From positions 1-57,451 of the IMG/VR virus record IMGVR_UViG_3300027637_000001: 57,451 nt of DNA. One strand, given 5' to 3'. The position numbers and the translations under genes are program-made. Below the pieces are notes generated by a model. The model did no database searches, was not told the DNA's origin, and saw only the letters and a list, made by a program, of their open reading frames with translations. This DNA is from a virus. Below, one piece after another: positions 12,102-31,764 of the stretch. Position 1 is the stretch's first letter; each line of letters begins with the position of its first letter.

Positions 12102-12128
12102 AAGGGTCGGCCGTGGGGGCCGGCCCTT
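12102..12128. terminator. Hairpin between divergent promoters and the initiator
   Basis: AAGGGTCGGCC (12102-12112) pairs with GGCCGGCCCTT (12118-12128) with one G-T pair and a five-base loop. It lies in the predicted 5' leader of the minus-strand initiator transcript, so it may be an attenuator rather than a simple end. Confidence 0.45.
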
Positions 12129-12146
12129 CTCGCGTCTGGGGGCCGC

Positions 12147-12175
12147 ACCCTACGCCATCCGTGACCGCGGTGCCA
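12147..12175 (-). promoter_or_regulatory. Leftward promoter of the replication operon
   Basis: Minus strand: -35 TGGCAC (12170-12175), 17-base spacer, -10 TAGGGT (12147-12152). The spacer starts in ACCGCGGTCAC, a degenerate operator. Its -35 lies next to the -35 of the rightward promoter, so one bound regulator could affect both. Confidence 0.45.
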
Positions 12176-12206
12176 CGTTGCACACCAGCGTGTTCCGCGG
12201 TAACGT
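12161..12206 (+). promoter_or_regulatory. Rightward promoter of the Gam-RecT operon with operators
   Basis: -35 TTGCAC (12178-12183), 17-base spacer, -10 TAACGT (12201-12206). TTCCGCGG ends the spacer and a variant GTGACCGCGG (12161-12170) lies upstream. The start codon is 30 bases further with an AGGAGG site, so this member is not leaderless. Confidence 0.72.
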
Positions 12207-12235
12207 GCGGGTTCCCCACGACCCAGGAGGTCACG

Positions 12236-15715: not shown

Positions 15716-16429
15716 CTACGCGAACAGGACCGAGTGGAACGTGGCCGGCCCCGCCACGCCGTCCACCCGCAGCCCGTGGTCCCGCTGCCAGTCGACCACC
15801 GCGGCGTGCGTGAGCGGCCCGAACGAGCCGTCGATCACCAGCGGGTAGCCGCGCTGACGCAGCAAGTCCTGCCAGACCCGCACCACCGGGCCCCGGTCGT
15901 TGAGCCGTGCCGAGCCCGGGTAGCCGCCCGGCGGCGGCACCGGCCGGCCACCGGTCAGCGGGCCCGGCTGGCCGCCGGCCGCCGCGATGTAGGCCCGGAT
16001 CCGCGTCGCTGTGGCGCGGGCCTGGGCGGCGGTGCCCATGAACTCGAAGTGCATCGCGTCGGGCCACGCGAACCGGCCGCCCCACCGGAACCCGTTGTCG
16101 GTCCACAGCTGGACCATCCAGGCGGGCATGTCGGTGACCAGCCGCCGGTCGGCGCGCCGCGGGTTCGTCGGGGCGTTGATGTCGACGGCGGTGCCCTGGG
16201 AGTGGTTCGACGGGGACGACGTTCCGGCGATCGGGCGGCACGCGTAACCCCACGTCCAGTCCGGTCGGATGTCGTAGCCGCGGGCCTCGGTGAGGTCCAT
16301 CAGGAGCGCGACGAGGGGGGCGAGGTCCCGGTGGATGGGCAGGCGGAGACCGTCGTGCCGGGCCAGGGTCACGATCCGGCCCATGCGGTCGCAGTTCGGC
16401 CAGGCGGGCCCGAACGAGGCGTCAGCCAT
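15716..16429 (-). CDS. Endolysin: M15 D,D-carboxypeptidase-type domain plus peptidoglycan-binding domain
   Basis: 237 residues. The N-terminal 155 residues are a VanY/peptidase M15-type catalytic domain: RPIAGTSSPSNHSQGTAVDINAP carries the first zinc His and Asp (HSxGxAxDI), and WPDAMHFEF the last zinc His (HFE). The C-terminal 70 residues (GPVVRVWQDLLRQRGYPLVIDGSFGPLTHAAVVDWQRDHGL...DGVAGPATF) are a PG_binding_1 domain. It should cut peptide cross-links in peptidoglycan at lysis. ATG at 16429 overlaps the upstream stop by eight bases. Confidence 0.92.
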   Translation of the reverse strand: MADASFGPAWPNCDRMGRIVTLARHDGLRLPIHRDLAPLVALLMDLTEARGYDIRPDWTWGYACRPIAGTSSPSNHSQGTAVDINAPTNPRRADRRLVTDMPAWMVQLWTDNGFRWGGRFAWPDAMHFEFMGTAAQARATATRIRAYIAAAGGQPGPLTGGRPVPPPGGYPGSARLNDRGPVVRVWQDLLRQRGYPLVIDGSFGPLTHAAVVDWQRDHGLRVDGVAGPATFHSVLFA

Positions 16430-16814
16430 CGGAGCTGTCCTCCTCGGCGCCGGGCAGCGGGCGGGTGAACCCGTCGCAACCGCAGATGAGACAGGCCCCG
16501 GGGTCGCGGGCCTCGTTCCAGACCGGGCCGGCGGTCTCGGCGATGTCGGTCGGGTGGTCGACGATGTCGTGGTCGCACTCGCACGGGTCGCGCTCGACCT
16601 CGACGTCGACCGGCACGATCGGCATGTCGGCCGACAGCACGACCTCGGCGAGGGCCTCGACGTCGAGGGTGTCGCCCAGGCAGTCGGCGGCGTACATGTC
16701 GACGTCGGGGAAGCGGCCCCGGTGCTCACCGCCCTCGGGGGCGGCGTCGGCCGGGTCGTAGGGCGCCACACGCCACCTCGGTGGCGGGGACTCCAGGTTG
16801 GTCGGGGTGGTCAT
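16422..16814 (-). CDS. Acidic protein with Cys/His cluster, leaderless start
   Basis: 130 residues, MTTPTNLESPPPRWRVAPYDP at the start. DPCECDHDIVDH and ACLICGCDGF could form a zinc site. ATG is six bases after a TACGGT -10. It precedes the endolysin with a slight overlap. Function unknown. Confidence 0.65.
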   Translation of the reverse strand: MTTPTNLESPPPRWRVAPYDPADAAPEGGEHRGRFPDVDMYAADCLGDTLDVEALAEVVLSADMPIVPVDVEVERDPCECDHDIVDHPTDIAETAGPVWNEARDPGACLICGCDGFTRPLPGAEEDSSDG

Positions 16815-16820
16815 GACCCG

Positions 16821-16845
16821 ACCGTATCGCGCTAACTCCCGGTCA
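16821..16845 (-). promoter_or_regulatory. Leaderless-type -10 before the lysis-region gene
   Basis: Minus strand: TACGGT (16821-16826), six bases to ATG (16812-16814), with GTTAGCGCGA just upstream as a degenerate operator. No good -35 at 17-18 bases (CTGACC is 14 bases away), so this may be a weak or regulated member of the class. Confidence 0.5.
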
Positions 16846-17299
16846 GCTCGGCCTGCGCTTCGCCCAGGTCGCACGCCGGGGGCGGCAGGATCGCCCGGGT
16901 CTCGTCGCTCGCCCCCAGAGCGTCCAGGATCCGCTGGAACAGGTCGTAGCGCACGTGCACGCGGACGCACTCCGTCGCCGCAGCGCGGGCGGCGTCATCG
17001 GCCCGCTGCTGGACGACCTCGTCGAGGCGCGCCGCCTGGTCCTCCAGGTCGTCGATCGCCTGGTCGAGGCGGGCGTCAGTGGCGGCCTGGTGCTCGTCCA
17101 CCTGGCGATCCTTGTAGGAGTCCCAGGCGCCCAGCAGGCCCATCGCGACCACCAGAGCGATCAGCCACCGGGTCGACCGGTCGAGCTGCTCGACGCTGGC
17201 CCGGGGCACCTCGATCACCTCGCCGGGCTCCTCCTCGGGCTCGGCCGGGTCGTCGTCGGGCTCGGCGATGGGCCTCGGCGGGTCGGGCCAGCCGCTCAC
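16832..17299 (-). CDS. Single-span membrane protein with coiled coil, lysis region
   Basis: 155 residues from a GTG overlapping the upstream stop. A Pro/Glu/Asp-rich head (DDDPAEPEEEPGEV) leads to a transmembrane span near residues 45-62 (WLIALVVAMGLLGAW), then a long coiled coil (DEHQAATDARLDQAIDDLEDQAARLDEVVQQ). The layout resembles accessory lysis (spanin-like) or envelope proteins, but the class cannot be fixed. Confidence 0.6.
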   Translation of the reverse strand: MSGWPDPPRPIAEPDDDPAEPEEEPGEVIEVPRASVEQLDRSTRWLIALVVAMGLLGAWDSYKDRQVDEHQAATDARLDQAIDDLEDQAARLDEVVQQRADDAARAAATECVRVHVRYDLFQRILDALGASDETRAILPPPACDLGEAQAELTGS

Positions 17300-17394
17300 C
17301 ACGTGCACCTCGTCATCAGCGCCACCGCCAGGCCCGCCAGGAGCAGCAGCGGCGCCGCCCGGTAGGCGTAGTGCACCCACGCCGACCAGGTCAC
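17296..17394 (-). CDS. Tiny membrane peptide in the lysis region
   Basis: 32 residues, VTWSAWVHYAYRAAPLL at the start and a hydrophobic C-terminal half ending ALMTRCTW. GTG at 17394 overlaps the upstream stop and its own stop overlaps the next GTG, so it sits in a perfect chain of coupled genes. Possible holin regulator. Confidence 0.55.
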   Translation of the reverse strand: MTWSAWVHYAYRAAPLLLLAGLAVALMTRCTW

Positions 17395-17618
17395 CGCAGG
17401 ATCCCCCGGATGTTGCCCAGGACTCGCGCACCCAGCGACAGGGCCAGCACCGAGAAGATGAACCCGAACGACTCCATCCGCGCCCCCAGGAACGCGACCT
17501 CGATCGTCCCCCAGAACAGGGCCACGACGATGATCAGCGTCTGTAGCCACTGGGGCGGGGGCGGGAAGGGTGAGGCCTCCGATTCCTCGGGGGCCTCGTC
17601 GGGGGGCCGGTCGCTCAC
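17391..17618 (-). CDS. Two-span holin candidate
   Basis: 75 residues from a GTG at 17618 (GTGA overlap). A hydrophilic acidic/Pro-rich N-terminus is followed by spans at about residues 25-46 (WLQTLIIVVALFWGTIEVAF) and 52-68 (FGFIFSVLALSLGARVL), ending NIRGILR. Size, two spans and basic tail fit class II holins. Confidence 0.58.
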   Translation of the reverse strand: MSDRPPDEAPEESEASPFPPPPQWLQTLIIVVALFWGTIEVAFLGARMESFGFIFSVLALSLGARVLGNIRGILR

Positions 17619-18775
17619 GGAGCACCAGCCGTCGCCCTCGTGAGGTCCGCCACCAGCTCGCGGCCCGCCGCCGTCGCCCCTGCCATCGTCGAGCAGCCGC
17701 GTTCCCACGCCGCCGCCGCCGTCCACGCCTCCGCCCACCGCCAGGCGTTCCGTTCGATCGTCAGCGCCGCCGCCGCCGCACGGCCCGCCGCCCCCATCTC
17801 CGCCCGCCGCGCCGGGTCCCGGGACAAGGCCCGCAGCAGCCCCGCCCACTCCCGGGGCCGGTGCGCCAGGACCGTCCCCGGCGACATGTCCGCCCACGCC
17901 GCGTAGGGCTCCGTCGGCGCCGCCACGCACGGCACCCCGACCGCGTTCAGCTCCAGGGGCTTGAGCCAGCTCTTCGCCTGGTTGAACCGGGTCTGAGCCA
18001 GCGGAGCGATCCCGACCCCGAACCGGGCGATCGCCAACGGCCAGTCGTCGATCCCCACCGGGCCCGGCCCGGGCGGGTTCTCGCCCAGGCCCAGCGCCCG
18101 GCCCACCCCGTCAGGCTGGCCCACCGTCTCGAACCGGCCGCCGCCGGCCAGCAGCTGGGCGACCGCCGCGCCGACCACCTGCAGGTCGTCGGGATGCGAG
18201 TGCACCGAGCCGCCCCAGCCGACGAGGTCGGAGTCGACGTGGCCGACGGCCAGGTACCGCTCGGGCACGCAGTTCGGGACGATCACCGAGCCCGCCCGCT
18301 GGTTCGGGTACGAGGCCGCCAGGCGGGGCGTCGTCACGGTGACCATGGTCGCCAACGAGCACGCCCGGGCAGCGTTCACCGCTGAGTGCGGGTTCGGGAT
18401 CCGCACCCGCTTGTTCTCGGGGTGCGGGATCTCCTTGGCCAGGGTCCCGAACGCCGGGTTCGCCGGGTGGATGTGCGACAGGTCGTCGTCCATGTCGACC
18501 ACCACCGCGCACCCGCGGGCCCGCACCATCGGGATCATGTCGACCAGGAAGCTCACCGTGGGGCGCTGCAGCACGATCACGTCGGCGTCGGCCGGGAACT
18601 TCTCCTCGGCCACCTGGCCCTTGAAGTTGAACCCGACCCGCACGGCCCGTTCCTCGGGGCCCACCACGGTGACGTCGAGGTCGGTCTGGGCGTCGACCGC
18701 CGCCGCCGGCCACAGCATCCGGTACGACCCGCAGCCGGTCCGGTCCCCCGGGTAGAGGTAGACCCGGAGCGTCAC
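17615..18775 (-). CDS. GT-B type glycosyltransferase
   Basis: 386 residues from a GTG at 18775 (GTGA overlap). N-terminal Rossmann half opens TLRVYLYPGDRTGCGSYRMLWPA, with IVLQRPTVSFLVDMIP and VVDMDDDLSHIHPANPAF; the C-terminal half has RYLAVGHVDSDLVGWGGSVHSHPDD and AKSWLKPLELNAVGVPCVAAPTEPY, the donor-sugar E-rich motif area of GT4-like enzymes. It should move a nucleotide-activated sugar onto an unknown acceptor. Context (dioxygenase, kinase, methyltransferase in the same coupled operon, just after the tail fibre genes) suggests virion or surface glycan modification. Confidence 0.8.
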   Translation of the reverse strand: MTLRVYLYPGDRTGCGSYRMLWPAAAVDAQTDLDVTVVGPEERAVRVGFNFKGQVAEEKFPADADVIVLQRPTVSFLVDMIPMVRARGCAVVVDMDDDLSHIHPANPAFGTLAKEIPHPENKRVRIPNPHSAVNAARACSLATMVTVTTPRLAASYPNQRAGSVIVPNCVPERYLAVGHVDSDLVGWGGSVHSHPDDLQVVGAAVAQLLAGGGRFETVGQPDGVGRALGLGENPPGPGPVGIDDWPLAIARFGVGIAPLAQTRFNQAKSWLKPLELNAVGVPCVAAPTEPYAAWADMSPGTVLAHRPREWAGLLRALSRDPARRAEMGAAGRAAAAALTIERNAWRWAEAWTAAAAWERGCSTMAGATAAGRELVADLTRATAGAP

Positions 18776-18984
18776 GAGACGGCCCGCAGCTCCAGGTCCC
18801 GGTCGAGCCGGAACCTCGTCCACACCTCCACGAAGTTCTCCACAGGAATGATCGTGCGGGCCTCCTGCACGCCGTCGGTGTAGGCGAAGTCCACGACCCC
18901 GTCGACCAGCACACCGTGGCCGACCACGGTGTCGTCGCCGTCGACCGCCTCGAACAGGCCCTCGTCGTTCACCGGGATATCCAC
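18772..18984 (-). CDS. Small acidic protein in the modification island
   Basis: 70 residues, VDIPVNDEGLFEAVDGDDTVV at the start, all-beta in appearance (GHGVLVDGVVDFAYTDG). GTG at 18984 with GAGGAGG upstream; stop overlaps the glycosyltransferase start. No family recognised. Confidence 0.65.
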   Translation of the reverse strand: MDIPVNDEGLFEAVDGDDTVVGHGVLVDGVVDFAYTDGVQEARTIIPVENFVEVWTRFRLDRDLELRAVS

Positions 18985-18986
18985 AG

Positions 18987-19607
18987 CTAGTCCTCCTCGG
19001 GGCGGCGCCCGAGCGCCTCGACGTTCAGGTACGCCGGGGCCGCCGGGTTCCAGCGGGTGACCTCGGCGGGGGGCACGATCTGGCAGGGGTAGGTGTAGGC
19101 GGTGTGCAGCACCTCCAGGTCGGCGTCGCTCATCATCACCGCCATGGCCTTGTCGGAGAACCGGTAGAAGTCCTCCGGGTAGCCGTGGATCGGGAACGTC
19201 TGGTGGGTCTGCACGTACACCAGGCCGCCCGGGCGCACGACGGAGGCGGCAGCGACCATGGCCTGCCAGGGACGCTCCAGGTGCTCCCACACCGAGCACG
19301 CCACGTAGGCGTCGTACTCGCCCGGGTACCACTCGTACACCGACCCCAACAGGCCCGGCTCCGACGCCCGGAACGTAGCCAGGGTGTGGGCGTCGTCGAC
19401 CCGGTCGACGTCAGGGCCCTCCTCGCGGTCGACGCGCACCCAGTCGCCGTGCGGCGCCCAGGCGGTGTGGTGGGTCGGCCGGTCGGCCTCGGCGCGCAGC
19501 GTCCCCACCTCGACCACCCGGGGCCGCTCGATCGCGGCCAGGAAGTCGACCAGGCGCTGCGCGCCGTCGGCCGTCCCCGCACCGATCCCAGCCGGATCGG
19601 CGATCAC
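18987..19607 (-). CDS. Class I SAM-dependent methyltransferase, sugar/glycan type
   Basis: 206 residues from a GTG at 19607 overlapping the kinase stop. PRVVEVGTL is motif I, GDWVRVDREEGPDVDRVDD the adenosine-contacting strand, EYDAYVACSVWEHLERPW the motif II/acidic strand, and VRPGGLVYVQTHQTFPIHGYPEDFYRFS the strand and loop seen in small glycan O-methyltransferases. Probably methylates a sugar made or transferred by its neighbours (inference). Confidence 0.78.
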   Translation of the reverse strand: MIADPAGIGAGTADGAQRLVDFLAAIERPRVVEVGTLRAEADRPTHHTAWAPHGDWVRVDREEGPDVDRVDDAHTLATFRASEPGLLGSVYEWYPGEYDAYVACSVWEHLERPWQAMVAAASVVRPGGLVYVQTHQTFPIHGYPEDFYRFSDKAMAVMMSDADLEVLHTAYTYPCQIVPPAEVTRWNPAAPAYLNVEALGRRPEED

Positions 19608-20149
19608 CACGTCGCCTCCTCCCACACGTAGCTCGCGGCCACCCGGAGATCACCGTCGGGGACCACCACGCCGCCCTCGACCGCCTCGACCTGCGTGCGC
19701 AGGGTGCGCTGCAGCCGCCGGTTGCCGTCCAGCTCCTCGGCAGCGTCGTCGAGGTCGCGGCCGTCGGCCTCGTAGCGCTCGGCGAGCGAGCTGGCCACGT
19801 CCTGCCATGGCCGGTCCAGGAACACGAACCGGACCTGTACACCGGCCTCCTGCGCCGCCCGCCAGGCGTTCGACATGATCAGCCGGAACGGCCACACGAT
19901 CCCGGTCACCACCCGGTGCTGGTACTCGGCGCTCTGGGTGTCCGGGTCGGCGGTCTGCTGGGCCAGCTCGGTGACCTCGGCGAGCACCTCGGCGGCCCGC
20001 CACTCCAGCCACGGCACGTGCCCCGCCGAGGGCATCCCCGACGGGTGGGCGTCCAGCTCCTCGACGCCGGCCTGGCCGCCCTCGTTCAGCTGGTCGTGCA
20101 GGGTGGACTTCCCGGCGCCGGAGCAGCCGATCACGTAGGTGAGACGCAT
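19604..20149 (-). CDS. P-loop kinase
   Basis: 181 residues. MRLTYVIGCSGAGKSTLHDQL holds a perfect Walker A (residues 8-16). VRFVFLDRPWQDVASSLAERY resembles the lid and Walker B area of small-molecule kinases (nucleotide, shikimate or sugar kinases). Substrate unknown. It is coupled to the methyltransferase. Confidence 0.75.
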   Translation of the reverse strand: MRLTYVIGCSGAGKSTLHDQLNEGGQAGVEELDAHPSGMPSAGHVPWLEWRAAEVLAEVTELAQQTADPDTQSAEYQHRVVTGIVWPFRLIMSNAWRAAQEAGVQVRFVFLDRPWQDVASSLAERYEADGRDLDDAAEELDGNRRLQRTLRTQVEAVEGGVVVPDGDLRVAASYVWEEATW

Positions 20150-20158
20150 GAGGGGAAC

Positions 20159-20428
20159 CTACTCCTGGGTCGGGATGCGGTCGTGGTTGCGGGCGATGGC
20201 CGCATTGAACCCGGCCAGCACCTCGTCGGTCAGCTTGCGCAGCGCCAGCTGCAGCTCCAGCGACATCGGGCACGTGTCGATGGCCTTGTGGGCCAGCTCG
20301 GCCACGGCGCCTCGCATGGTCTCGTGGGCGACCCGGGCGGCGGTGTCGGGCGCGTGGTAGGCGACCCGGTGGGTGACCTCGTCGTGAAGGTCGCCCCGTC
20401 GGACCCGGTCCATGTCGACCTCGGCCAT
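20159..20428 (-). CDS. Helical protein in the modification island
   Basis: 89 residues, MAEVDMDRVRRGDLHDEVTHR at the start, helical and His-rich, ending ARNHDRIPTQE. ATG at 20428 overlaps the dioxygenase stop (TGATG). Not recognised; possibly a partner subunit. Confidence 0.65.
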   Translation of the reverse strand: MAEVDMDRVRRGDLHDEVTHRVAYHAPDTAARVAHETMRGAVAELAHKAIDTCPMSLELQLALRKLTDEVLAGFNAAIARNHDRIPTQE

Positions 20429-21309
20429 CAGCCGGCCGCCACGGGCTGCTCGGTGCGGATCGGCCAGAACCAGCCGCCGCTCGGGTGCTGCTCGGGCTCC
20501 CACCCGGCGTGAGCGAAGTCCTTCCGGGTGTGGATCCCCGAGAAGTGCGCGATCAGCGCCGGCCGGTACGTGTTCGGGAACCTCGGCGCCGAGCCCCGGT
20601 GGTACAGCCGCGGGTGCCACAGCAGCGCGTCGCCCGGGTTCGGGATCCAGTCGACCACCTCGGCGTTCCGGGCCTGGATCTCCGCCTCGACGAGCGGGGT
20701 CAGCACCGCCTCGGTCTGCGCCGGCCACGCCGGGTCCGCCATGTCGACGATCCCCGACGCCGCCACCCGGCTGTTGGTCAGCCGGTGCCAGCGGTGCGAC
20801 CCGGGGATGAACTGGAACGGGCCGGCGTCGGGCTCGATGTCCCCGAGCGCGATCCACACCGCGGCGTAGGCGTCCCCGACGTGGTCGGGGTTCAGGTAGC
20901 CGTCCTGGTGCCAGTTCCGCTGCGTCGAGGTCCACCCGGTCAGCGTCAGGTGCAGGCCCATCGGTTCCCCGACGGTGGCCTCCAGGGCCTCGGCCAGGGG
21001 CCCGGACATGAGGAGGTCGAGCAGCGCCGGGTTGTAGACGTACGGGCACGTGTCGGGCCAGCCGCCCGGGCGTTCGGCGTCCACGACGAACAGCCGGTCG
21101 GCGTCGCCCTTGAGCGACCAGGCGCCGTCGCCGCCCTCGGCGAACGCCGGCTTGAGGCCGCGCCAGCCGTTGGCCACCATCCATTCGTCCTGGTAGGCGG
21201 CGATCAGCTCGCCGGGAACGATGCGGTCGAGGGGCACGACGCCGTCGTCGGACCAGTCGGCCGGGCTCGGGTCGGGGGTGGGTTCGGAGAGGTCGTCCAG
21301 GGTGATCAT
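20428..21309 (-). CDS. Fe(II)/2-oxoglutarate dioxygenase, phytanoyl-CoA hydroxylase (PhyH) type
   Basis: 293 residues. NWHQDGYL supplies the HxD pair (about H134, D136), and WHPRLYHRGSAPRFPNTYRP the distal His (about H237) and the Arg for 2-oxoglutarate (about R249), on a double-stranded beta-helix (TGWTSTQRN, AAVWIALGDIEPDAGPFQFIPGSHRWHR). All metal ligands are present, so it should be active. PhyH-type enzymes hydroxylate small molecules, amino-acid side chains or, more remotely, bases. It is the first gene of the island and starts close to the divergent moron promoter. Confidence 0.85.
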   Translation of the reverse strand: MITLDDLSEPTPDPSPADWSDDGVVPLDRIVPGELIAAYQDEWMVANGWRGLKPAFAEGGDGAWSLKGDADRLFVVDAERPGGWPDTCPYVYNPALLDLLMSGPLAEALEATVGEPMGLHLTLTGWTSTQRNWHQDGYLNPDHVGDAYAAVWIALGDIEPDAGPFQFIPGSHRWHRLTNSRVAASGIVDMADPAWPAQTEAVLTPLVEAEIQARNAEVVDWIPNPGDALLWHPRLYHRGSAPRFPNTYRPALIAHFSGIHTRKDFAHAGWEPEQHPSGGWFWPIRTEQPVAAG

Positions 21310-21378: not shown

Positions 21379-21540
21379 ATGAACCTCACCGACACCACCA
21401 CCAGCCGCACCGCCCGCCGACTCCGCGACGCCGCCCGGGGCGGCTACTTCGACGCCGCCGACGCCGACCGCGACGGCGACCCCGTCCTGGCCTCGGCGCT
21501 CCGCCGGACCGCCCGCCGCAACGCCCGCCGGGCCCGCTGA
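21379..21540 (+). CDS. Small basic moron protein, LTDT-class leaderless
   Basis: 53 residues, MNLTDTTTSRTARRLRDAARG, very Arg-rich (tail RRTARRNARRAR). It begins six bases after the -10. It is plus-strand inside a long minus-strand region and is followed two bases later by another small gene. A small basic helix protein could bind nucleic acid; function unknown. Confidence 0.7.
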   Translation: MNLTDTTTSRTARRLRDAARGGYFDAADADRDGDPVLASALRRTARRNARRAR

Positions 21541-21542
21541 CC

Positions 21543-21749
21543 ATGCACCTCCACGAGGTCGAGCAGCGCGAGACGGCGTTCACCCCCCGCATGTGGGATG
21601 CCACCCCCGACGTGTGCTGCGCCTACTTGCAGACCGGCGCTTGCGCCCACACCGAGGGTTACGACCCGGCCGACGACGACCTGGAGCCGGTCTCCACCGG
21701 CGCCGACGAGGTCCGCTACGCCGTCGAAGGCGACGACGAGCCGTTCTGA
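21543..21749 (+). CDS. Second moron gene, small acidic protein
   Basis: 68 residues, MHLHEVEQRETAFTPRMWD, with CC and C (CCAYLQTGACAH) and an acidic tail. It follows the Arg-rich gene by two bases on the plus strand, so both are one transcript. The acidic/basic pairing suggests interacting products (inference). Confidence 0.65.
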   Translation: MHLHEVEQRETAFTPRMWDATPDVCCAYLQTGACAHTEGYDPADDDLEPVSTGADEVRYAVEGDDEPF

Positions 21750-21808: not shown

Positions 21809-23488
21809 CTACAGCTCGTTGACGGTGAGCGGCCCGACCTGTAGGTAGTGCGGGTCGGCCGGGTCGAAGATCCCGACGTGCGCCAGCAGGATCCCGTCGG
21901 GCGCGTACCCCTGGAACCCGTCGCCCCCCGCGTCGGTCCACGACATCACGAACTCGGCGTCGTCCCACGCCGGAGGGTCCATGTGCGGCGGGTAGAACCG
22001 GCCGACCATCCCCGTCCCGGCCTTCATGGTGTCGGCCTGGAACGGGTAGCACGCCCCGAAGTCCGCCCACGACCCCGACCCGCCGTTCAGGATGTCGGCG
22101 CCGGCCTGGGGGTAGGTCAGGTGGTTCTCGTCGAGGCGGGTGGCTCCGATGATGATGTGGTCGCCGAGCGGGCCGGTGATCTTCACGTCGAGGGTGCGGG
22201 ACCGCAGCGACCGGTCCAGGTCGGCCTCATGCACGACCAGCGTCACCTGGCCGCCGATCCGTTCGGACGCGAGCACCTCGCCGCCGGCCGACAGGCGCAG
22301 CCCGGGGATCGTCTGGGACGTGTTCCCGAGCAGCACAAGGTCGTCGTCGTCGTAGTGCCCCGACCAGACGCCCATGTTCACGATCCAGGGGGACACCCCG
22401 AAGATGTCGCCCCACGTCATCGTGATCAGGTAGGTGCCGTCGTCCTCGTCGAGGTGGACGGCGTGGGCGTGGCCCTGCTGGCCGACCATCAGGCCGCCGT
22501 TCTCCTGGAACCAGATCGACGAGAGGTGCGAGTCGACGGCGGTCAGCTCGCGGAGCACGGCCACGTGGCGCTCGTTGCCGTTCGAGCCGGTGACCTTGCG
22601 GAACTGGCCCCGGCGGCCGCCGACCGCGAGCACGGTGGTCAGCTCGTTGACGTTGCGGGCGCCCGGGTCGGTGTCGACGGTGACGTTCACGAGGTCGAAG
22701 CGGTCCCAGTCCGCCTCCTCCCACGCGACGTAGGCGGACGCGCGGTTGCGGGCGGTGGCGAGCACGAACGCCGCGACGCGGGGCCCCGGGTCCACGTCGG
22801 TGGTCTCGGTGGCGGTGGCGCCGGTCAGCTCGGCGAACGCCTCGACGTCGGCCGGGTCGACCTCGGCGTCCGCGTCGAAGAACCAGAGCCCGACCTTGTG
22901 CCCGAACGGCCGGATGGCGTCGAGGTTGCGCATCGGGTCGATGTCGGGGAGCGCCGCCGTCCACGCCGCGCCCGAGCCCCAATCGGCGTTGATGGTGGCC
23001 TGGAGCGACGGGTTGTCGTCGTAGAACTTGTCGGCGTCCACGATGGGCCGGAGCAGCGCGACGGCCAGCACCTTCCCCGGGTTACGCCACGCCCAGTTCA
23101 GGGCGTTAAGGGAGCCCATGCCCTCGCCGATGACGGCGACCCGGTCGGTGCGGGTCCCGATCCACACCTGGGCGGCCGCCCAGTCGACGAGGTCGTCGAC
23201 CCAGCCGCCCGGGTCGACGACGTCGGGGGTCGCCCACTGGGACGTGCCCCCGAGGCGGGCGGCCAGCACCGGGTAGCTGGTCGAGGTCACCGCGGTGAAC
23301 AGGCTGGAGAACGAGCCGGTCAGGGTGCCCTCGGCGGTGCCCTGGTAGGCGTGGAAGTAGAGCACCGGGATGTCGCCGCCGGGGGCGTGCGCCCGGCCGA
23401 CGTGCAGTACGACGGTCTCGTCGGTGGCGGAGCTGTCGGCGCTGTAGCGGGTCCAGCGCGACGACCCGAGCGGCGGGACGACGCTCAC
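21809..23488 (-). CDS. Minor tail protein with alpha/beta-hydrolase fold lacking the nucleophile
   Basis: 559 residues from a GTG at 23488 (GTGA overlap). Residues 30-230 look like an alpha/beta hydrolase (GGDIPVLYFHAYQGT, RVAVIGEGMGSLNALNWAWR, KVGLWFFDADAEVDPAD), but the nucleophile elbow reads G-E-G-M-G, with no Ser. The C-terminal half is beta-rich with repeated lectin- or sandwich-like strands. As the last tail gene it is probably a tip or fibre protein with a binding rather than a cutting role. Confidence 0.68.
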   Translation of the reverse strand: MSVVPPLGSSRWTRYSADSSATDETVVLHVGRAHAPGGDIPVLYFHAYQGTAEGTLTGSFSSLFTAVTSTSYPVLAARLGGTSQWATPDVVDPGGWVDDLVDWAAAQVWIGTRTDRVAVIGEGMGSLNALNWAWRNPGKVLAVALLRPIVDADKFYDDNPSLQATINADWGSGAAWTAALPDIDPMRNLDAIRPFGHKVGLWFFDADAEVDPADVEAFAELTGATATETTDVDPGPRVAAFVLATARNRASAYVAWEEADWDRFDLVNVTVDTDPGARNVNELTTVLAVGGRRGQFRKVTGSNGNERHVAVLRELTAVDSHLSSIWFQENGGLMVGQQGHAHAVHLDEDDGTYLITMTWGDIFGVSPWIVNMGVWSGHYDDDDLVLLGNTSQTIPGLRLSAGGEVLASERIGGQVTLVVHEADLDRSLRSRTLDVKITGPLGDHIIIGATRLDENHLTYPQAGADILNGGSGSWADFGACYPFQADTMKAGTGMVGRFYPPHMDPPAWDDAEFVMSWTDAGGDGFQGYAPDGILLAHVGIFDPADPHYLQVGPLTVNEL

Positions 23489-24300
23489 GCCGCGACCGCT
23501 CGCAACGACGCCAGGTTGAGCACGGACGCTGACATGCGGACCGTGAGGTTCCCGCCCGAGCCCATGCCCGCGATGACGTAGTCGCCGGCCGAGTGCGCAG
23601 CGAGCCGGGCGAACGGCTCGACGGTGCGGGTCGTGGTCGTGTCCATGTCGGGGACGGGGACCCCGTCGAGCGCCGCGAAGAGCCCGGTGTTGCTGGCCGG
23701 GTAGATCCCGAACGAGGCCTCCGCCGGGGCGTTGGAGGCGGCCTGGAGGCCGGGCACGTGGCCGATCAGGTAGACGGGGCGGGCGAGGTCTGGGACGGTG
23801 ACGAGCAGGCCGGGCACGGCGGCGTTGAAGAGGCCGCCGCCGGTGCCGGTGATCGTGACCGCGGTCGAGGAGAACGCGAACGCGATCTCTAGGCCGCCGC
23901 CGTGCAGGTCGAGACGGGAGGCGTGCGCGGCCAGAGCGGTGGGGGTGACGGTGCCCAACGGGTCGTCCTCCAGGTCGAAGGGGTCATAGGGGCCGCCGGT
24001 GACCGGCACGGTGAGGAACGAGGGCTCGTAGGAGACGCAGCCCGGCACGAACCGTTCCACCATCCACGTGGTGCCCTCGGGGGCGATGTCGCTGTTCGGC
24101 CAGAGGTCCATCGACCAGACCCCGGCGCTGTTGATGCCGTTGCCGGTCATCAGGACCGTGGTGCCGACGAACTTCTTCCCGGTCGAGAGGGCCCGGCCCA
24201 CGACGGGGCGGCCCTGGCCTCCCACGAGCGTGACCCACACCTGGGCCGGCCAGGGGGTCGTGGTGTCCGGCTTGTCGAGGTCTTCCTGAACCACGGTCAC
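23485..24300 (-). CDS. Minor tail protein
   Basis: 271 residues from the GTG at 24300 with GGAGGGG upstream. A beta-rich N-terminal domain (AQVWVTLVGGQGRPVVGRALSTG) precedes a second beta domain (GLEIAFAFSSTAVTITGTGGG, ending AGDYVIAGMGSGGNLTVRMSASV). Position among tail genes is the main evidence. Confidence 0.62.
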   Translation of the reverse strand: MTVVQEDLDKPDTTTPWPAQVWVTLVGGQGRPVVGRALSTGKKFVGTTVLMTGNGINSAGVWSMDLWPNSDIAPEGTTWMVERFVPGCVSYEPSFLTVPVTGGPYDPFDLEDDPLGTVTPTALAAHASRLDLHGGGLEIAFAFSSTAVTITGTGGGLFNAAVPGLLVTVPDLARPVYLIGHVPGLQAASNAPAEASFGIYPASNTGLFAALDGVPVPDMDTTTTRTVEPFARLAAHSAGDYVIAGMGSGGNLTVRMSASVLNLASLRAVAA

Positions 24301-24312
24301 CGGGGACCCCTC

Positions 24313-24948
24313 CTAGTTGATCTGCTGGATGCGGGCAAGGTAGCTGACCCCGTCCAGGATGACGTCGGCGCCACCAGCGGACGACACGACGCCGGTGCTG
24401 TACTCGATCGCGCACACCGTGTTCGCGCCGAACGCTCCGATGCACGGGAGCAGCAGGTCGTTGTCGGGCCACGCCCACTCCGGCAGAGCGAAGATCGGGG
24501 TGGCCGAGCCCGACGTCCGGGTGGCTCGGCCCCGCAGCTCGATACGCCCCGACCGGCGGGTGAACATGACCTGAGCGTTGCCGTTCTGGCCCGGGGGGAG
24601 CGTGCCGGCCGAGTGCCCCCAGCCGGTCAGGAACGGGGGCTCGCCCTCGGTGCCGACGATGTGCCATTCGTCCCAGTCGCCCGAGAGGCGCCCGACGACA
24701 AAGCACCGGGCGGCGTCGCCGGTGTAGAGCAACTGCACCCGGTCGCCCGGCATGAGCGTCACCGGGGCGGCGATCGTGGCGCCGTGGGCCTCGTTGGGGC
24801 CGTCGGCGACCACCGTCGCGATGGTGTTCGTCGGGTCGACGCCGGTCACGACGCCGGCCACGTAGCCGGGGATCAGCCGCAGCGCAGCGGCCCGGCCGGC
24901 CTGGGCGGCGGCGGCGACCATCTCGCGCTCCAGGGCAGACAGGGCCAC
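24313..24948 (-). CDS. Minor tail protein with N-terminal OB-like domain
   Basis: 211 residues from a GTG that overlaps the upstream stop as TAGTG. VTGVDPTNTIATVVADGPNEAHGATI and LMPGDRVQLLYTGDAARCFVVGRL resemble the OB-fold found in tail hub or spike proteins. The rest is beta-rich. Adjacent to the large tail proteins. Confidence 0.65.
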   Translation of the reverse strand: MALSALEREMVAAAAQAGRAAALRLIPGYVAGVVTGVDPTNTIATVVADGPNEAHGATIAAPVTLMPGDRVQLLYTGDAARCFVVGRLSGDWDEWHIVGTEGEPPFLTGWGHSAGTLPPGQNGNAQVMFTRRSGRIELRGRATRTSGSATPIFALPEWAWPDNDLLLPCIGAFGANTVCAIEYSTGVVSSAGGADVILDGVSYLARIQQIN

Positions 24949-26057
24949 TACGCGTCCTCCTCGACGATGTCGGCGAAGTCCTCGCTCCAGACCCGCCGCA
25001 GCTCGTGGGACATGACCCCACCGGCCACCAGCGGGAGGGTCCACTGCTGCTCGCGGTACTTCTCGCCCTTCCACCCGATGACGTCGAACGTGTCGTGGCG
25101 CGGGTCGATCGCGGTGCTGAAGTTGACCCACCGGTACGTGGCGTAGTCGGCCTGCCCGAACGCTTTCGCCATGCGGGCGGCCTGCCCGTTCGAGGTGACG
25201 CCCTGCACGTCGTACTTGCGGACGAGGGCCCGGCCCCGGTTGGCCTCAGAGTGCGGCGCCGACGCCGGCACCTTCCACTCACCCCAGATCGGGCCGGACG
25301 ACATGCCCGAGTTGAGAACCAGGTAGACGTTCGGGGCGGCCAGCAGGTCGTCGGACTCCTGCACCGACCCGGCCACCACGTTCTGGCCGGCCACGTAGGT
25401 CAGGGTGGGCTCGACCGACGACATCGACGGCACCGCCCGCAGCACCGCCACGCCCATGTTGTCGAAGTACAGCGAGTAGAACCCGGCCAGCGCGGCGAGG
25501 TCGTTGATGATCTCCAGGCGGGTGGCCTCCGCCTTCCACACCATCCACTCCGACACCGTGGCGTCGGTCGCTTCGATGTCGTGCTCAACGATCCCGCCGG
25601 CCTCGACCTGCTGAACGAGCAGGTCGTACACCGAGTCACCGGGCGCAGCGAACGTGACCCCGCGGGACTCCTCGTCGAGGAGCGCGAGCTGGTCGAGCAG
25701 CGCCCCATCGGTGGTCTGGCCGACCCCGACCGAGGCGAGGTCGACGGACCCGTAGAGCTGCTCGGAGCGGGTGGCGTCGGCGAACACGAACACGCCCAGC
25801 GGGTACTCGGTGCCGTCCTGCATGACCATCCACGGGCGCAGCCGCTCGGTCAGCGTGTTGATCTCGGCCGTGACCTTGGGGGGAAGCGTGAGCCCGTTGA
25901 GTGCCCGCTTGACCTTCCGGTTGATGTTGTTGGTCACCGACGCCCCGCCCATCTGGACGGTCAGGTCACCTATCCACGAGTTGAACCGGTCGAGGAGATC
26001 GAACCGGAAGCCCTCCGCCCGCTGGCCCCAGCCGTCGAGGGTGAGGAGGTCGCTCAC
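24948..26057 (-). CDS. Minor tail protein, baseplate hub-like
   Basis: 369 residues from a GTG at 26057 (GTGA overlap). Motifs such as SVTNNINRKVKRALNGLTLPP, WMVMQDGTEYPLGVFVFAD, and a long DYATYRWVNFSTAIDPRHDTFDV match a common siphophage tail protein that follows the distal tail protein. Probably part of the hub at the tail tip. Confidence 0.72.
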   Translation of the reverse strand: MSDLLTLDGWGQRAEGFRFDLLDRFNSWIGDLTVQMGGASVTNNINRKVKRALNGLTLPPKVTAEINTLTERLRPWMVMQDGTEYPLGVFVFADATRSEQLYGSVDLASVGVGQTTDGALLDQLALLDEESRGVTFAAPGDSVYDLLVQQVEAGGIVEHDIEATDATVSEWMVWKAEATRLEIINDLAALAGFYSLYFDNMGVAVLRAVPSMSSVEPTLTYVAGQNVVAGSVQESDDLLAAPNVYLVLNSGMSSGPIWGEWKVPASAPHSEANRGRALVRKYDVQGVTSNGQAARMAKAFGQADYATYRWVNFSTAIDPRHDTFDVIGWKGEKYREQQWTLPLVAGGVMSHELRRVWSEDFADIVEEDA

Positions 26058-28543
26058 GGCGACGCCGGGGCCGTCACCTGCGCGACGGACGTGTCGTGGA
26101 CCGCGGGCGTGTCGGCGGCCTCGACGATCCCGATGTCGGCCGTCCACAGCTCGGAGCCCTGGGCGTCGCCGCGCCGGTTGGTGCCCTCAGGCACCACCAG
26201 CGACGCGTACCAGCGGTTCCCCTCGCCGTCGCGGACGCACACGTAGGGGATCGGCGCCCACGCCAGGTCCCGGAGGGGCTGGAACAGGTCCATGGACGGG
26301 AGCACCGGCGTGAGCTTGCACCCGGCCGCCAGCAGCAGCCGGCGCGTGAACCCGTCGCCCCGGCGCTCCAACGGACGGAACGCCACCTCGCGGTTGCGGC
26401 CATGCATCCGGCGCAGCTCGACGTCGTCGAACTCCCGGAACGTGAAGTCCCGGACCACCTCGCGATCCCACACCTCGGGGTAGACGCAGCCCATGCCGGT
26501 GGCGGCGTTCGAGCTGAACGCCAGGGCCACCTGGCCGCCCGGCACCGTGATCGACGCCGGGTCGGACCAGTCGCCCACCACGCCGTCGGAGCGCAGGGCC
26601 CGCACCCGGTACTGCGTGCGGACCCCGATGAGGGGCTCCAGGTCGTTCCAGGCGTCGGTGGTGCGGCCGTCCACCGAGGCGACGCGCTGCCAGTCGGGGT
26701 CCAGGTCGTCGAGCCGGTCGACCTGGTAGCCGACCGTGTCGGGGTCGGACTCGGGCACCGGTGACCACGACACCTGGGCGTAGGGCATCGTGTCCTCGGA
26801 ACAGCCCGGGCAGATGGCCTCCCCCGAGCAGATCGTGACGTGATGGGCGGTCAGGGCCCCGTCGCGGGCTCCCACACCGGTGACGGCCGGCGGGACCTCG
26901 ACCAGGGTCGTGAGCAGGTCCGAGGACCGCACCCCGGAGTCCCACAGCGGGAGCGTGACGCCGTCGGCCAGGTAGTTGCCCTCGGCGTGGTCGGTGCCCC
27001 CGGCCCACGTCTGGTCGTTCGTGGTGGCGTCGCTGATCAGCGCGGCGACGTACCACGGGACGGTGTCGGTGGAGTCCGGGGACGAGAACTGGACGCGGTG
27101 CAGCGCCGTGGTCAGGTCGACGCCGTCGTCGAAGCGCATTACCACCGTCTTGTAGGTGACGCCCTGGTCATCGGTGTTCGACACCGGCGCCGACACCGGT
27201 AGCCGGGCGACGTCGTCGGCCGAGACCTCGACCGCGCCGAGCACCCGGGTGCCAGTGGCGTCCACGAACACCTCGGCCCGCAGCGGCGCCGACGGCCGTC
27301 CGTCCTGGGCCCGCCACCCAGCGACCACGAACACCTGGCCGTACACCGTGGTCCCGGCCGGGATGGTCATGAGCTGGGACACGACCTCGTCGCCGTACAC
27401 CGGCGCGCCACGCGACAGCGCGTAGGGCATCGTGTCCGCGATCACCGTCGACCCGTCCCGGATCCGGGCGCAGGGGATCCCGTCGAGCTGGGCGCCGGCC
27501 GCGCCCATCAGCCCGGACACGCCGTTCGCCGAGGTCTGCACCGTCGGGTTGAACGGCTGCGCCCGGCGGACCCAGGTGCCGTCGGCGGCCTGGCCCCGGA
27601 GGTGACGCCACGGGAGCACCGACCCGGCGACGTTGTCGACGTTGTAGTCGGTGATCCGGCGGGCCATCAGGACGAGGTTCTCGCCGGCCGTCGAGGTCGG
27701 CGAGCCCGTCCCGGCCGGGGTGTCCATGCTCACCGACATCCACGAGAACGCCGTACCGGGCGAGCCGACACCGACCCCGCGGCGGCGCTCGGGGATGCTG
27801 AACACCCGCAGGTAGACCCGGTCGACCCGCCAGTAGCCGGCGCCGGCCCGGCACGTGATCCGCATCTTCCGGGACCCACCGGACGCGAAGTCCCGGATCA
27901 TGGTGGGCGTCCACGGCCGCCAGAACGCCTCGTTCGCCTGGACGATCGCCTCGCCGAAGCGGGTGACGCCGGTCGAGAACCCGTTCGACCAGATCAGCGC
28001 TTCCTTGTTCCAGACGGTGAGGCCGCCCGGGTCGTAGCGGCGCACGTTGTAGGGCAGGTTCCCGCGGACGATGACCTCGACAGCGAGCACGTGCCGGTCG
28101 AGCCCGAACGCCCCCGTGCCGAACTGGAGATCCACATAGGCGTTGATCGCCGACGCCGCGATGAACTGGCCGTCGTCGAACGCGTTCAGCCGCGCGATCG
28201 TGACCGGCTGCGTCAGATTCTCGTTGTACATCGCCGAGGACCCGGTGACTGCGGTCACGGAGAAGTCGTTGTAGGTGAGCGCTCCCCAGGGCTCGTCGCC
28301 GGACTCGACCAGCTCGACGAGCATCGGCCGCCGGACGCTGTTGTAGATCGCGGGCAGCGTCGAGGCCTGGGCGCCCTGGCCGGCGTAGAGATCGACGATG
28401 TCGATGTCGCCGGTCGCGCGGGCCTCGAAGTGCAGGGTCTCGACGTCGGCGGAGGCGTCCACCACCCCCTGGGCGTAGCCGACGTCGATGTGCTCGACGC
28501 CCAGCTTCCCGGGGGCGTTCAGGTTCCAGTCGGGGGCGGTCAC
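26054..28543 (-). CDS. Large minor tail protein with fibronectin-III-like domain
   Basis: 829 residues from a GTG overlapping the tape-measure stop. The first 280 residues look like a distal tail/carbohydrate-binding region. Around residues 570-680, CSGEAICPGCSED and then SWSPVPESDPDTVGYQVDRL and RTQYRVRALRSDGVVGDWSDP give a fibronectin type III domain. Next to the tape measure, it is the likely distal tail protein. Confidence 0.75.
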   Translation of the reverse strand: MTAPDWNLNAPGKLGVEHIDVGYAQGVVDASADVETLHFEARATGDIDIVDLYAGQGAQASTLPAIYNSVRRPMLVELVESGDEPWGALTYNDFSVTAVTGSSAMYNENLTQPVTIARLNAFDDGQFIAASAINAYVDLQFGTGAFGLDRHVLAVEVIVRGNLPYNVRRYDPGGLTVWNKEALIWSNGFSTGVTRFGEAIVQANEAFWRPWTPTMIRDFASGGSRKMRITCRAGAGYWRVDRVYLRVFSIPERRRGVGVGSPGTAFSWMSVSMDTPAGTGSPTSTAGENLVLMARRITDYNVDNVAGSVLPWRHLRGQAADGTWVRRAQPFNPTVQTSANGVSGLMGAAGAQLDGIPCARIRDGSTVIADTMPYALSRGAPVYGDEVVSQLMTIPAGTTVYGQVFVVAGWRAQDGRPSAPLRAEVFVDATGTRVLGAVEVSADDVARLPVSAPVSNTDDQGVTYKTVVMRFDDGVDLTTALHRVQFSSPDSTDTVPWYVAALISDATTNDQTWAGGTDHAEGNYLADGVTLPLWDSGVRSSDLLTTLVEVPPAVTGVGARDGALTAHHVTICSGEAICPGCSEDTMPYAQVSWSPVPESDPDTVGYQVDRLDDLDPDWQRVASVDGRTTDAWNDLEPLIGVRTQYRVRALRSDGVVGDWSDPASITVPGGQVALAFSSNAATGMGCVYPEVWDREVVRDFTFREFDDVELRRMHGRNREVAFRPLERRGDGFTRRLLLAAGCKLTPVLPSMDLFQPLRDLAWAPIPYVCVRDGEGNRWYASLVVPEGTNRRGDAQGSELWTADIGIVEAADTPAVHDTSVAQVTAPASP

Positions 28544-31500
28544 GCGATCCTCGCTTCGACTCGGGCGGCGCGCTGGTCGATCACGTCGGCGGCCCGCTTC
28601 CCGATGCGGTCACCGATCCGGTCGGCCTCGGCGTCGGACACGGGGCCCGCAACGTAGGTCGTGAAGTTCAGGATCGTGGCCCCAGCGTCCCCAGGAGCGC
28701 CGGAGACGGCCGACCGGCCACCGGTGGGCGGTGGCGCCGACGACGAGCCCTGAGCGGCCGCCAGGACGTCCCACAGCCCCGACTGGTTCGCGAGCTGGAG
28801 CGTGCGGCGCGGGTTGGTCAGCGGCAGCAACACCTCCTTGCCGGCCTCGCCGATGATCATGTTCGTGGCCCGGTCGAAGATCCCGCCCTCGGCGCCCACC
28901 CCCGGGATGGCGCCAACGACGTCGCCCACGACCCCGCCGCCGGGTATGGACTCGATCTTCTCGATGAGGTCGGCCACCCAGCCGATCGCCGATTCGATCC
29001 AGCCAATGAGCGTTTCGATCGCGCCCGACACCAGGTCGATCGCGCCCTTCATCACGTTCCAGGCAGTGGTCGCGACCCCGAGCGCGAACCCGAGCCCGAA
29101 CTGGAGGGCGGCGGTGATCGGGCCGAGGGCGGCCGACAGCAGGCCCGTGATGGCGCCCGACACGAACCCGACCGCCGTCTTGAACAGATCCCACGCGCCT
29201 TTCGCCACGTTGATCGCGGCGGTGAAGGCGCCGGCCAGGAACCCGCCGAGGGGGACCAGCACGCTGTTCCAGAGGAACGACGCGGCGGTCGTTACCCCGG
29301 TGATCGCCGCTCCCAGCACGGTCGACAGGACTCCGGCCAGGAACGAGATCACCGGGGTGAGCACGTCGGCCAGGAACCGGCCGAGCGGGACCAGGATGTA
29401 GTTCCACAGAGCGTTCGCGGCGATCGACACCGCGGTGACCGCTACGGCCAGGGGCCCGAACGCCACCACCGCGAGGGCGATCAGGGCGGGCTGCAAGAAC
29501 GTCCAGATGAACTCGCCGAGCGGCACGAGGACGGACTGCCACAGCCACGTCGCCGCGGCCACGATGGCGTCGACCGCGACGAGCAGCGCCCCGCCGATCG
29601 CTTCACCGACTGCGATCACCGCTCCGATGAACGTCGACAGCAGGAACTCGCCGAGCGGCACCAGGACGTTGGTCCAGAGGTCGCCGAGCGTGGCCACGAG
29701 CGCGTCGAACGCCGGGCCGGCGTTGTCGCTGACGAACGTCACGACGTCGGCCAGCGCCCCCAGCAGCAGAGCGATCCCCTGGAACACCAGGCCGTGGGTG
29801 AACGTGTTCAGCCGGACGAACAGGGCGCCCAGCTTGAACAGCGGCACCAGCAGCGGGGTCAGCGCCGCGAGGATCTCGGCGAGCGACACGGCGATCGACG
29901 CCAGGGCCTTGCCCAGCTCGGGCAGCTCGGGGCCGATGTCCTGTAGGAGCCCCTCGAACGTCTCCAGCCAGGCGTCGGCCAGATCCTCCAGTGCCGGCCC
30001 GATGATCTCCAGGGCGTCGATCAGGCCGCTGGCCAGCAGCGAAATGAACTGGTTCAGGATCGGAATGGCGGGCTCGATCGCCTCGAAGAACCGGACGGCG
30101 ACGTCGGCGAGCCCCTGCAGGATCGGCACCAGCGACTGCAGCACGGCCGTCAGCGACGCCGACAGCTGAGCGAACAGGGGCTCCATAGCCTGGACGAGGG
30201 AGCCGAGCCCCTCGGCCAGCGTGTCGATCACCGGGGTGAGCAGCTCCACCAGGTTGGCCAGGAGCGCCAGGACCGGGGGGAGCACGGTCGATGCCAGGGT
30301 GGCGAACAGACCGATGATCGGCTGCAGGGCGCCGCCGATCGCGGAGAACAGGGGGGCCAGCGCCTCCAGGACCGGGCGGAAGTCGCCGGCCACGGTGCCG
30401 ACCGTCTCGAAGATCGACGCGAACCCGTCGGCCAGGCCCTGCAGCGCGACACCGAACGACGGGCCCACAGCGTCGATCACGTCGACCAGCGTCGAGATCA
30501 GGCCGCCCGCGATCGACGACAGCGCCGGGGCGATGGTGCCCAGCGACGACTCGATCGCCGGGATGGCCTCCGACAGCGCCGTCTTGATCGTGGGGACCAG
30601 GGGCTCGAACGCCTCGGTGAGGGCGATCTGGATGGTGTCTTTGAACGTCGAGAACACGCCGAGCAGGGTCTGGGCCTGCTTGGCCATCGCCCCGGCCGCG
30701 CCCGGGAACTCCTTCATGCCCTGGAGCAGGAGGTCGATTCCCTCGGTGGCGGGGATCGCTCCTGACTCGACCAGCTTCTGCAGCTCGCCGGTCGTGATCC
30801 CGAGGCCGTCGGCCATCGCCTGGAACGGGGCGAACCCGGGGAGCGCCTCGGACAGCTGGAGCAGCTCCTGGGTGCTGACCTTGCCGCGCGACGCCATCTG
30901 CCCGAGGGCGCGGACCACGCGGTCGATGGCGTCCGGTGGGGCGCCGAGCACGGCGGTCAGGTCGCCGATCGTCTCGACGGTCGGGATCAGCTCCTCGCGA
31001 GCGATCCCGGCGGCGTCGGAGACGGCCAGCAGCCGCCGGGTGTTCTCGGCCAGCCCCTGGAACTCGAACGGGGTCCGGGCCGCGAACTGCTGCATCTCGC
31101 GGATGAACGCGTCGGCCTCCTCGGCCGATCCCAGCAGCGACTCGAACCCGATGCGGGTCTGCTCGATCGACGCCGAGCCCTTCAGGCCGAACGCGACCGC
31201 CGCTGCCCCGGCGATCCCGAACCCGACCGCCGTCGCCGCCGCCCCGGAGGTGAGCAGCGAGAACGCCGCCCCGGACGTCCCGATCCTGGAGATAGCCCGG
31301 ATGCTGTCGTTCGACGAGTCGCGGAACGACCGCTCGACCGACTCGGCCGCCACCTCGGCCGAGGCCACCACCGGACCGAACGCGTCGACTCCGCCGATGT
31401 CGGCCAGATCCTCGTCGGCGCCGCGCCGCGCCTCAGAGAACGCGTTCTCGATCGCCTCACCGGTGGCCTCGGCCTGTCCCCTCACCGAGGCGAACAGCTC

Positions 31501-31764
31501 GGGGCCGCCGATGTCCCGCAGGACGGCGTCGACCTCGCGCTGGGTCTCCTGGAACTCCCGCTCTACCTGGTTGAGCGACCGGTCGACGTCGCCCAGGATC
31601 TCGCGGAACGCCTCCCGGAACACGTCCTCGATCTGCTCGCCGACGCGCTCGGCGACCTCTTCGATCGCCTCCAGGCGGGCGTCGATGCCGTCCAGGCCGC
31701 GCTCGGCGGCGTCGACATCGGCGTCGATCTCGACGTGGGCCTCGGAGAGGGGGCCGGTGACCAT
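28540..31764 (-). CDS. Tape measure protein
   Basis: 1074 residues, the longest of the tail genes. Residues 1-160 are coiled coil; about 170-380 match the TP901-type core (SGAAFSLLTSGAAATAVGFG, IGFESLLGSAEEADAFIREMQQFAARTPFEFQG, VVRALGQMASRGKVSTQELLQLSEALPG); the rest is long hydrophobic helices with repeated LVPLGEF-type units (about every 60-90 residues: SVLVPLGGFL, NVLVPLGEFL, YILVPLGRFL). By the usual rule of about 0.15 nm per residue the tail would be near 160 nm. It sets tail length and helps DNA entry. Confidence 0.95.
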   Translation of the reverse strand: MVTGPLSEAHVEIDADVDAAERGLDGIDARLEAIEEVAERVGEQIEDVFREAFREILGDVDRSLNQVEREFQETQREVDAVLRDIGGPELFASVRGQAEATGEAIENAFSEARRGADEDLADIGGVDAFGPVVASAEVAAESVERSFRDSSNDSIRAISRIGTSGAAFSLLTSGAAATAVGFGIAGAAAVAFGLKGSASIEQTRIGFESLLGSAEEADAFIREMQQFAARTPFEFQGLAENTRRLLAVSDAAGIAREELIPTVETIGDLTAVLGAPPDAIDRVVRALGQMASRGKVSTQELLQLSEALPGFAPFQAMADGLGITTGELQKLVESGAIPATEGIDLLLQGMKEFPGAAGAMAKQAQTLLGVFSTFKDTIQIALTEAFEPLVPTIKTALSEAIPAIESSLGTIAPALSSIAGGLISTLVDVIDAVGPSFGVALQGLADGFASIFETVGTVAGDFRPVLEALAPLFSAIGGALQPIIGLFATLASTVLPPVLALLANLVELLTPVIDTLAEGLGSLVQAMEPLFAQLSASLTAVLQSLVPILQGLADVAVRFFEAIEPAIPILNQFISLLASGLIDALEIIGPALEDLADAWLETFEGLLQDIGPELPELGKALASIAVSLAEILAALTPLLVPLFKLGALFVRLNTFTHGLVFQGIALLLGALADVVTFVSDNAGPAFDALVATLGDLWTNVLVPLGEFLLSTFIGAVIAVGEAIGGALLVAVDAIVAAATWLWQSVLVPLGEFIWTFLQPALIALAVVAFGPLAVAVTAVSIAANALWNYILVPLGRFLADVLTPVISFLAGVLSTVLGAAITGVTTAASFLWNSVLVPLGGFLAGAFTAAINVAKGAWDLFKTAVGFVSGAITGLLSAALGPITAALQFGLGFALGVATTAWNVMKGAIDLVSGAIETLIGWIESAIGWVADLIEKIESIPGGGVVGDVVGAIPGVGAEGGIFDRATNMIIGEAGKEVLLPLTNPRRTLQLANQSGLWDVLAAAQGSSSAPPPTGGRSAVSGAPGDAGATILNFTTYVAGPVSDAEADRIGDRIGKRAADVIDQRAARVEARIA

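Follow-up and report, generated by a model that had tools for sequence, protein, structure and literature searches.

Virion glycosylation cassettes have been described in actinobacteriophages (PMC11600133, PMC11256854, PMC13313380). In cluster O phages, glycosyltransferases (GTs) together with an O-methyltransferase are stated to modify the capsid and tail tube (PMC11600133, citing Freeman 2023), so that an O-methyltransferase alongside virion glycosylation is already known from actinophages (PMC11600133, PMC13313380, both citing Freeman 2023).

The locus studied here lies in a virus record of 57,451 bases and 73% GC, analysed over its entire length (the window). Like the described cassettes, which are reported to modify capsid and tail-tube proteins, it combines GT and methyltransferase genes in a tailed phage. 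Its GT is, however, of another family, for which a tblastn search at E 1e-5 found no match in mycobacteriophages, the group with reported virion glycosylation, and no homology to the glycosylation GTs of these phages was detected at the tblastn level. Further differences are the addition of a PhyH oxygenase, a kinase, a 70-aa protein and an Acb2-like gene, and the location of the operon, which tail genes adjoin on one side and lysis genes on the other.

Oxygenase, kinase and GT classes are also shared with DNA hypermodification sets, both TET/JBP-based and 5hmU-kinase systems; in contrast to them, a TET/JBP or thymidylate-synthase-like gene was not found in the window. Domains of GtrA/GtrB/GtrC-type membrane proteins, known from serotype-conversion modules, were not among the matches of the general Pfam scans. 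Bacterial methyltransferase-PhyH fusions (Hyphobacterium, Maricaulaceae, Rokubacteria; L140, L126, L147) tie the same PhyH subfamily to a SAM methyltransferase, but in one fused chain instead of the separate genes of phages, in which the methyltransferases belong to other subfamilies. The parts of the locus and phage glycan cassettes are already known, and the locus is not a new class. A recurrent oxygenase-methyltransferase pair with a phrog_7162 GT and a nested Acb2-like gene was absent from the searchable, incomplete literature, in which nothing relevant on PhyH alongside phage GT genes was found either.

Organization of the locus

An earlier note on this DNA described six tightly packed, mostly overlapping minus-strand genes at 17615-21309. 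All six ORFs are present, in the order PhyH, 89-aa protein, kinase, methyltransferase, 70-aa protein and GT (Table 1). Their consecutive junctions comprise a 1-nt overlap, a 9-nt gap, a 7-nt overlap, a 2-nt gap and a 4-nt overlap (three overlaps in five), in agreement with the packing proposed. GC3 of PhyH, kinase, methyltransferase and GT ranges from 0.94 to 0.98, and their GC content by codon position is coding-like. The island is composed of real genes and not of chance ORFs, because two other phages share the gene order and dN/dS is mostly below 1. The enzyme classes named previously were confirmed as well, by family matches for the oxygenase, GT and methyltransferase, and for the kinase by its Walker A motif and a sub-cutoff AAA_33 match.

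Table 1. Coordinates and diagnostic features of the operon and its flanking genes in the window
Feature	Position	Strand	Evidence
PhyH-type Fe(II)/2-oxoglutarate oxygenase, 293 aa	20428..21309	-	PF05721 E 1e-16
Acb2/Tad1 hairpin-family protein, 89 aa	20159..20428	-	PF24729 E 6e-5 (below curated cutoff); phrog_1454 E 3.5e-11
P-loop kinase, 181 aa	19604..20149	-	Walker A GCSGAGKST; AAA_33 E 1e-5, slightly under cutoff
Class I SAM methyltransferase, 207 aa, GTG start 19610	18987..19610	-	Methyltransf_11 E 2e-4, above Pfam cutoff
70-aa protein, unknown fold	18772..18984	-	clade-restricted; homologues in L039 and L040 only
GT4-like GT-B glycosyltransferase, predicted retaining, 386 aa, GTG start 18775	17615..18775	-	phrog_7162 E 2.8e-28
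Lysis region, flanking	15716..17621	-	small membrane-like proteins and M15 peptidase/PG-binding endolysin
Endolysin, M15-type	15716-16771	-	PF13539, PF01471, phrog_2649
Tail genes, flanking, upstream of island	21809..31764	-	PHROG tail families for two; block syntenic in L039, L040
Terminal protein of tail block, 559 aa	21809-23488	-	block syntenic in L039, L040
Tail protein	24948-26147	-	PHROG tail family, phrog_1887
Gene in flanking tail block	26054-28543	-	block syntenic in L039, L040
Tape measure	28540-31764	-	PHROG tail family

The major capsid protein shares 32% identity with counterparts in Streptomyces and Microbacterium phages, and since its matches are mostly in actinobacterial phages, the host is probably an actinobacterium. 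Downstream of the island, short ORFs near the endolysin appear membrane-like in translation. On the other side, the 559-aa protein has an N-terminal alpha/beta-hydrolase-like region with a nucleophile elbow, GEGMGS, apparently missing the usual serine; it is possibly an esterase fold used for binding only. Two small plus-strand ORFs, at 21543-21749 and about 21380-21540, are divergent to the operon and separate the tail genes from PhyH. Both are without a Pfam family; the longer one has a coding-like GC3 of 0.93, and the relatives showed nothing that matched it.

Elsewhere in the window, a Mu Gam-like protein is encoded at 12113-12964 (PF07352, E 8e-11) on the plus strand, opposite to nearly all genes, and adjoins a plus-strand ORF of 595 aa. 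A tRNA-Ala (CGC) was called antisense within the Gam-like gene (12607-12681, minus strand) and is perhaps false. A GDSL lipase/acylhydrolase (PF13472, E 2.8e-9) is located on the minus strand at the record edge (27-785).

Enzymes of the operon and their linkage

In the PhyH protein, the HxD...H iron triad noted earlier is indeed intact (H134, D136, H237), as is the 2-oxoglutarate arginine (R249), and all four residues are invariant across 26 phage homologues. The structural model (pLDDT 90) has Pro hydroxylase H11, phytanoyl-CoA hydroxylase, SnoN and EctD as Foldseek neighbours, and a profile search of the PDB retrieves SnoK, SnoN and EvdO2, enzymes of sugar-bearing antibiotics. Amino acids and small metabolites are also hydroxylated by PhyH homologues. 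No close match in annotated phages was obtained by tblastn. Marine phages with this PhyH (L015, L018, L020, L034) frequently carry a second, divergent PhyH elsewhere, adjoining in some of them ORFs with translations resembling GT2 and methyltransferase. Nitrospirillum loci L132, L136, L139 and L148 contain tandem pairs of the same PhyH type, all of them extended at the N-terminus by a region of unknown family.

The GT model (pLDDT 94) is closest in Foldseek to MshA, methylmannose polysaccharide mannosyltransferase, PimA and BshA, and SdgB, which glycosylates proteins, appears further down the ranking; judging from the model, it is a retaining GT4-type enzyme. Matches in tblastn were limited to phages of Arthrobacter (Atuin, Mimi group) and Streptomyces (Zuko group). 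Among soil phages, genes homologous to tail genes of the window are present in 59 of 79 loci of the GT family. Recurrent neighbours of the family are GT2 enzymes, GDP-mannose dehydratase/epimerase, Methyltransf_13/14 (sugar C-methyltransferase type) and Methyltransf_24 proteins, a predicted gene content that fits a cassette for glycan assembly and tailoring.

The methyltransferase has a degenerate glycine loop and an alternative start, GTG 19625, that would give 212 aa. It is kept in the soil phages L039 and L040, and more distant homologues are found beside GT in other phages; in the window clade it represents a subfamily different from the one adjoining PhyH elsewhere. For the 70-aa protein, no family was detected in Pfam, NCBIfam and PADLOC, and nothing significant in PHROGs.

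In Pfam, the kinase matches generic AAA/P-loop models only. It is limited to the clade of the window, L039 and L040, and in this place the cousin L041 has other genes, including a cytidylyltransferase. This makes phosphorylation the weakest part of the set of modifications proposed in the earlier note. The kinase-slot homologue is 40% identical in L039, the closer relative, yet 62% identical in the more distant L040, and the L039 kinase has a dN/dS of about 1.05, compared with 0.3-0.7 for the remaining genes in both relatives, dS values in this comparison being depressed by the extreme GC3. Because of this difference in identity and a dN/dS of about 1, the L039 kinase slot may have been exchanged.

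No close DNA match of the window exists in annotated phages. A 26.8-kb contig of another record carries PhyH, GT and the 89-aa protein that are 100% identical and in unchanged order. The order PhyH, kinase, methyltransferase, 70-aa protein and GT, together with the flanking tail and lysis genes, is kept in L039 and L040, with protein identities of 65-78% for PhyH, methyltransferase and GT (74% and 65% for GT in the two phages). Linkage of the six genes, as claimed before, is thus upheld for five of them, in conserved order; the 89-aa gene is missing from both relatives.

Of 35 PhyH loci in phages, 22 have GT and 24 a methyltransferase at a distance of no more than 3 kb, and neither was found only at 3-10 kb in any of them; these counts overstate independence, as the 35 loci are phylogenetically related and two pairs are possibly from near-identical phages. 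For this reason, the occurrence of PhyH-methyltransferase-GT linkage in four gene orders is a better argument than the counts. L041 shows PhyH, a different methyltransferase, cytidylyltransferase, a GT2-like gene (read from translation) and GT, and L013 has the order GT-PhyH-methyltransferase. Many marine phages have GT-HNH-PhyH-HNH-small ORF-methyltransferase, surrounded by HNH, ParB, PAPS-reductase and terminase genes of a recombination/packaging region. PhyH and methyltransferase are fused in one chain in 9 of 27 bacterial loci; in L147 the fusion is followed by an ORF with a translation resembling nucleotide-sugar dehydrogenase. Linkage of the methyltransferase in the phage loci, in several orders, and the bacterial fusions argue that oxygenase and methyltransferase belong together as a functional pair.

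Proposed role and alternative readings

We favour, with moderate confidence, an operon for glycan tailoring that belongs to the late (tail-lysis) region and acts on a structural protein of the phage. The GT4-like enzyme would use a nucleotide sugar of the host as donor, no gene for NDP-sugar synthesis being recognised in the window, and attach the sugar to a tail or capsid protein. In the presumed order of steps, PhyH would subsequently oxidise a C-H, either in the sugar or in the modified residue. The hydroxyl formed in this way, or one next to it, would then be converted by the methyltransferase to an O-methyl ether. A possible task of the kinase is to phosphorylate the sugar or another small alcohol of the pathway. 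Position had been taken earlier as favouring a virion target. This stands insofar as the tail-side site is common to much of the GT family, but the recombination/packaging context of the marine trio weakens the positional argument and is the main point against deducing function from position, which is not decisive by itself.

If not the virion, the enzymes might alter a glycan on the host surface, or a polymer of the cell wall, during infection, in receptor masking or superinfection exclusion, a reading that is unlikely but comes first among the alternatives. Three of the top Foldseek hits of the GT (MshA, PimA and methylmannose polysaccharide mannosyltransferase) come from actinobacteria and are enzymes of small molecules, lipids or polysaccharides, and the adjoining endolysin and tail proteins have the same envelope as their target. 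Among the genes of the operon, however, none was recognised as a glycan partner of the flippase or membrane type, and the GT is modelled as a soluble GT-B protein. In addition, a tail-adjacent site suggests late expression, which would be late for exclusion.

It is less probable still that a host metabolite or nucleotide-sugar pool is modified, as a form of auxiliary metabolism. The steady coupling of PhyH to glycosyltransferases and methyltransferases across phages of very different origin, and the proximity of tail genes in the majority of the soil phages, speak against it, even though EctD and hydroxylases of free amino acids are among the structural neighbours of PhyH, and the kinase, as well as the cytidylyltransferase in L041, hint at small activated intermediates. 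Hypermodification of phage DNA by base oxidation, phosphorylation and glycosylation ranks last and is very improbable. Similar enzyme classes occur in such sets, and ParB, HNH and PAPS-reductase genes adjoin the trio in marine relatives. The oxygenase is nevertheless PhyH rather than TET/JBP, the signature Tet_JBP and thymidylate-synthase-like genes were not found, a Pfam scan of the other 50 ORFs revealed no DNA-modification family, and the kinase has only its generic matches. Together with the sugar-tailoring neighbours of the soil-phage GT, these observations disfavour DNA as the target and agree with the preference for a glycan or virion target expressed in the earlier note.

Returning to tailoring of virion glycans, a more specific form of the proposal can be put forward tentatively: a dedicated pair of C-H oxygenase and O-methyltransferase may edit the glycans after glycosylation. 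The pair recurs in phages from soil, freshwater and the sea that are unrelated to each other, and it is related to the bacterial fusions; in the lineage of the window, the operon would carry an anti-signalling sponge in addition. If true, the pair would represent new phage-coat chemistry, in which sugars are edited beyond being added. Glycan coats of phages reportedly alter antibody recognition, which is relevant to phage therapy. Phages of this kind could be searched for by the signature of phrog_7162 GT, PhyH and methyltransferase.

The nested 89-aa gene

Acb2 and Tad1 are inhibitors of bacterial antiviral signalling that act as cyclic-nucleotide sponges. The 89-aa protein, previously listed without a family, is a real ORF and is recognisable as a member of their hairpin family, by a PF24729 match below the gathering score combined with a profile match to a PDB entry. 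The profile, built from seven sequences, retrieved 9ptq ('Acb2 homolog 43', E 6e-5) and, more weakly, Tad1 (E about 0.01); a PDB search with the single sequence gave nothing useful. The protein and its six phage relatives have the motifs YH.P, R, E and NAAIAR in common, conserved as in the small hairpin domain of the sponges. It differs from described sponges in scoring below the Pfam cutoff and in being nested in a sugar-modification operon, and its ligand binding is putative.

No match to the 89-aa family was found anywhere in the whole records of L039 and L040, and insertion within the lineage of the window, between PhyH and kinase, is therefore the simplest reading. Because of its similarity to Acb2/Tad1 and its absence from two phages that share the other five genes, the 89-aa gene is probably inserted counter-defence cargo, a putative cyclic-nucleotide sponge outside the pathway. 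The proposal of a single target for the six genes is rejected for this gene, and the linkage of the remaining five is retained. The presence of the gene suggests actinophage tail-lysis operons as sites in which to search for counter-defence genes. Its junction with PhyH reads TGATG, and the two genes are probably translationally coupled, so that the putative sponge would be co-produced with the operon.
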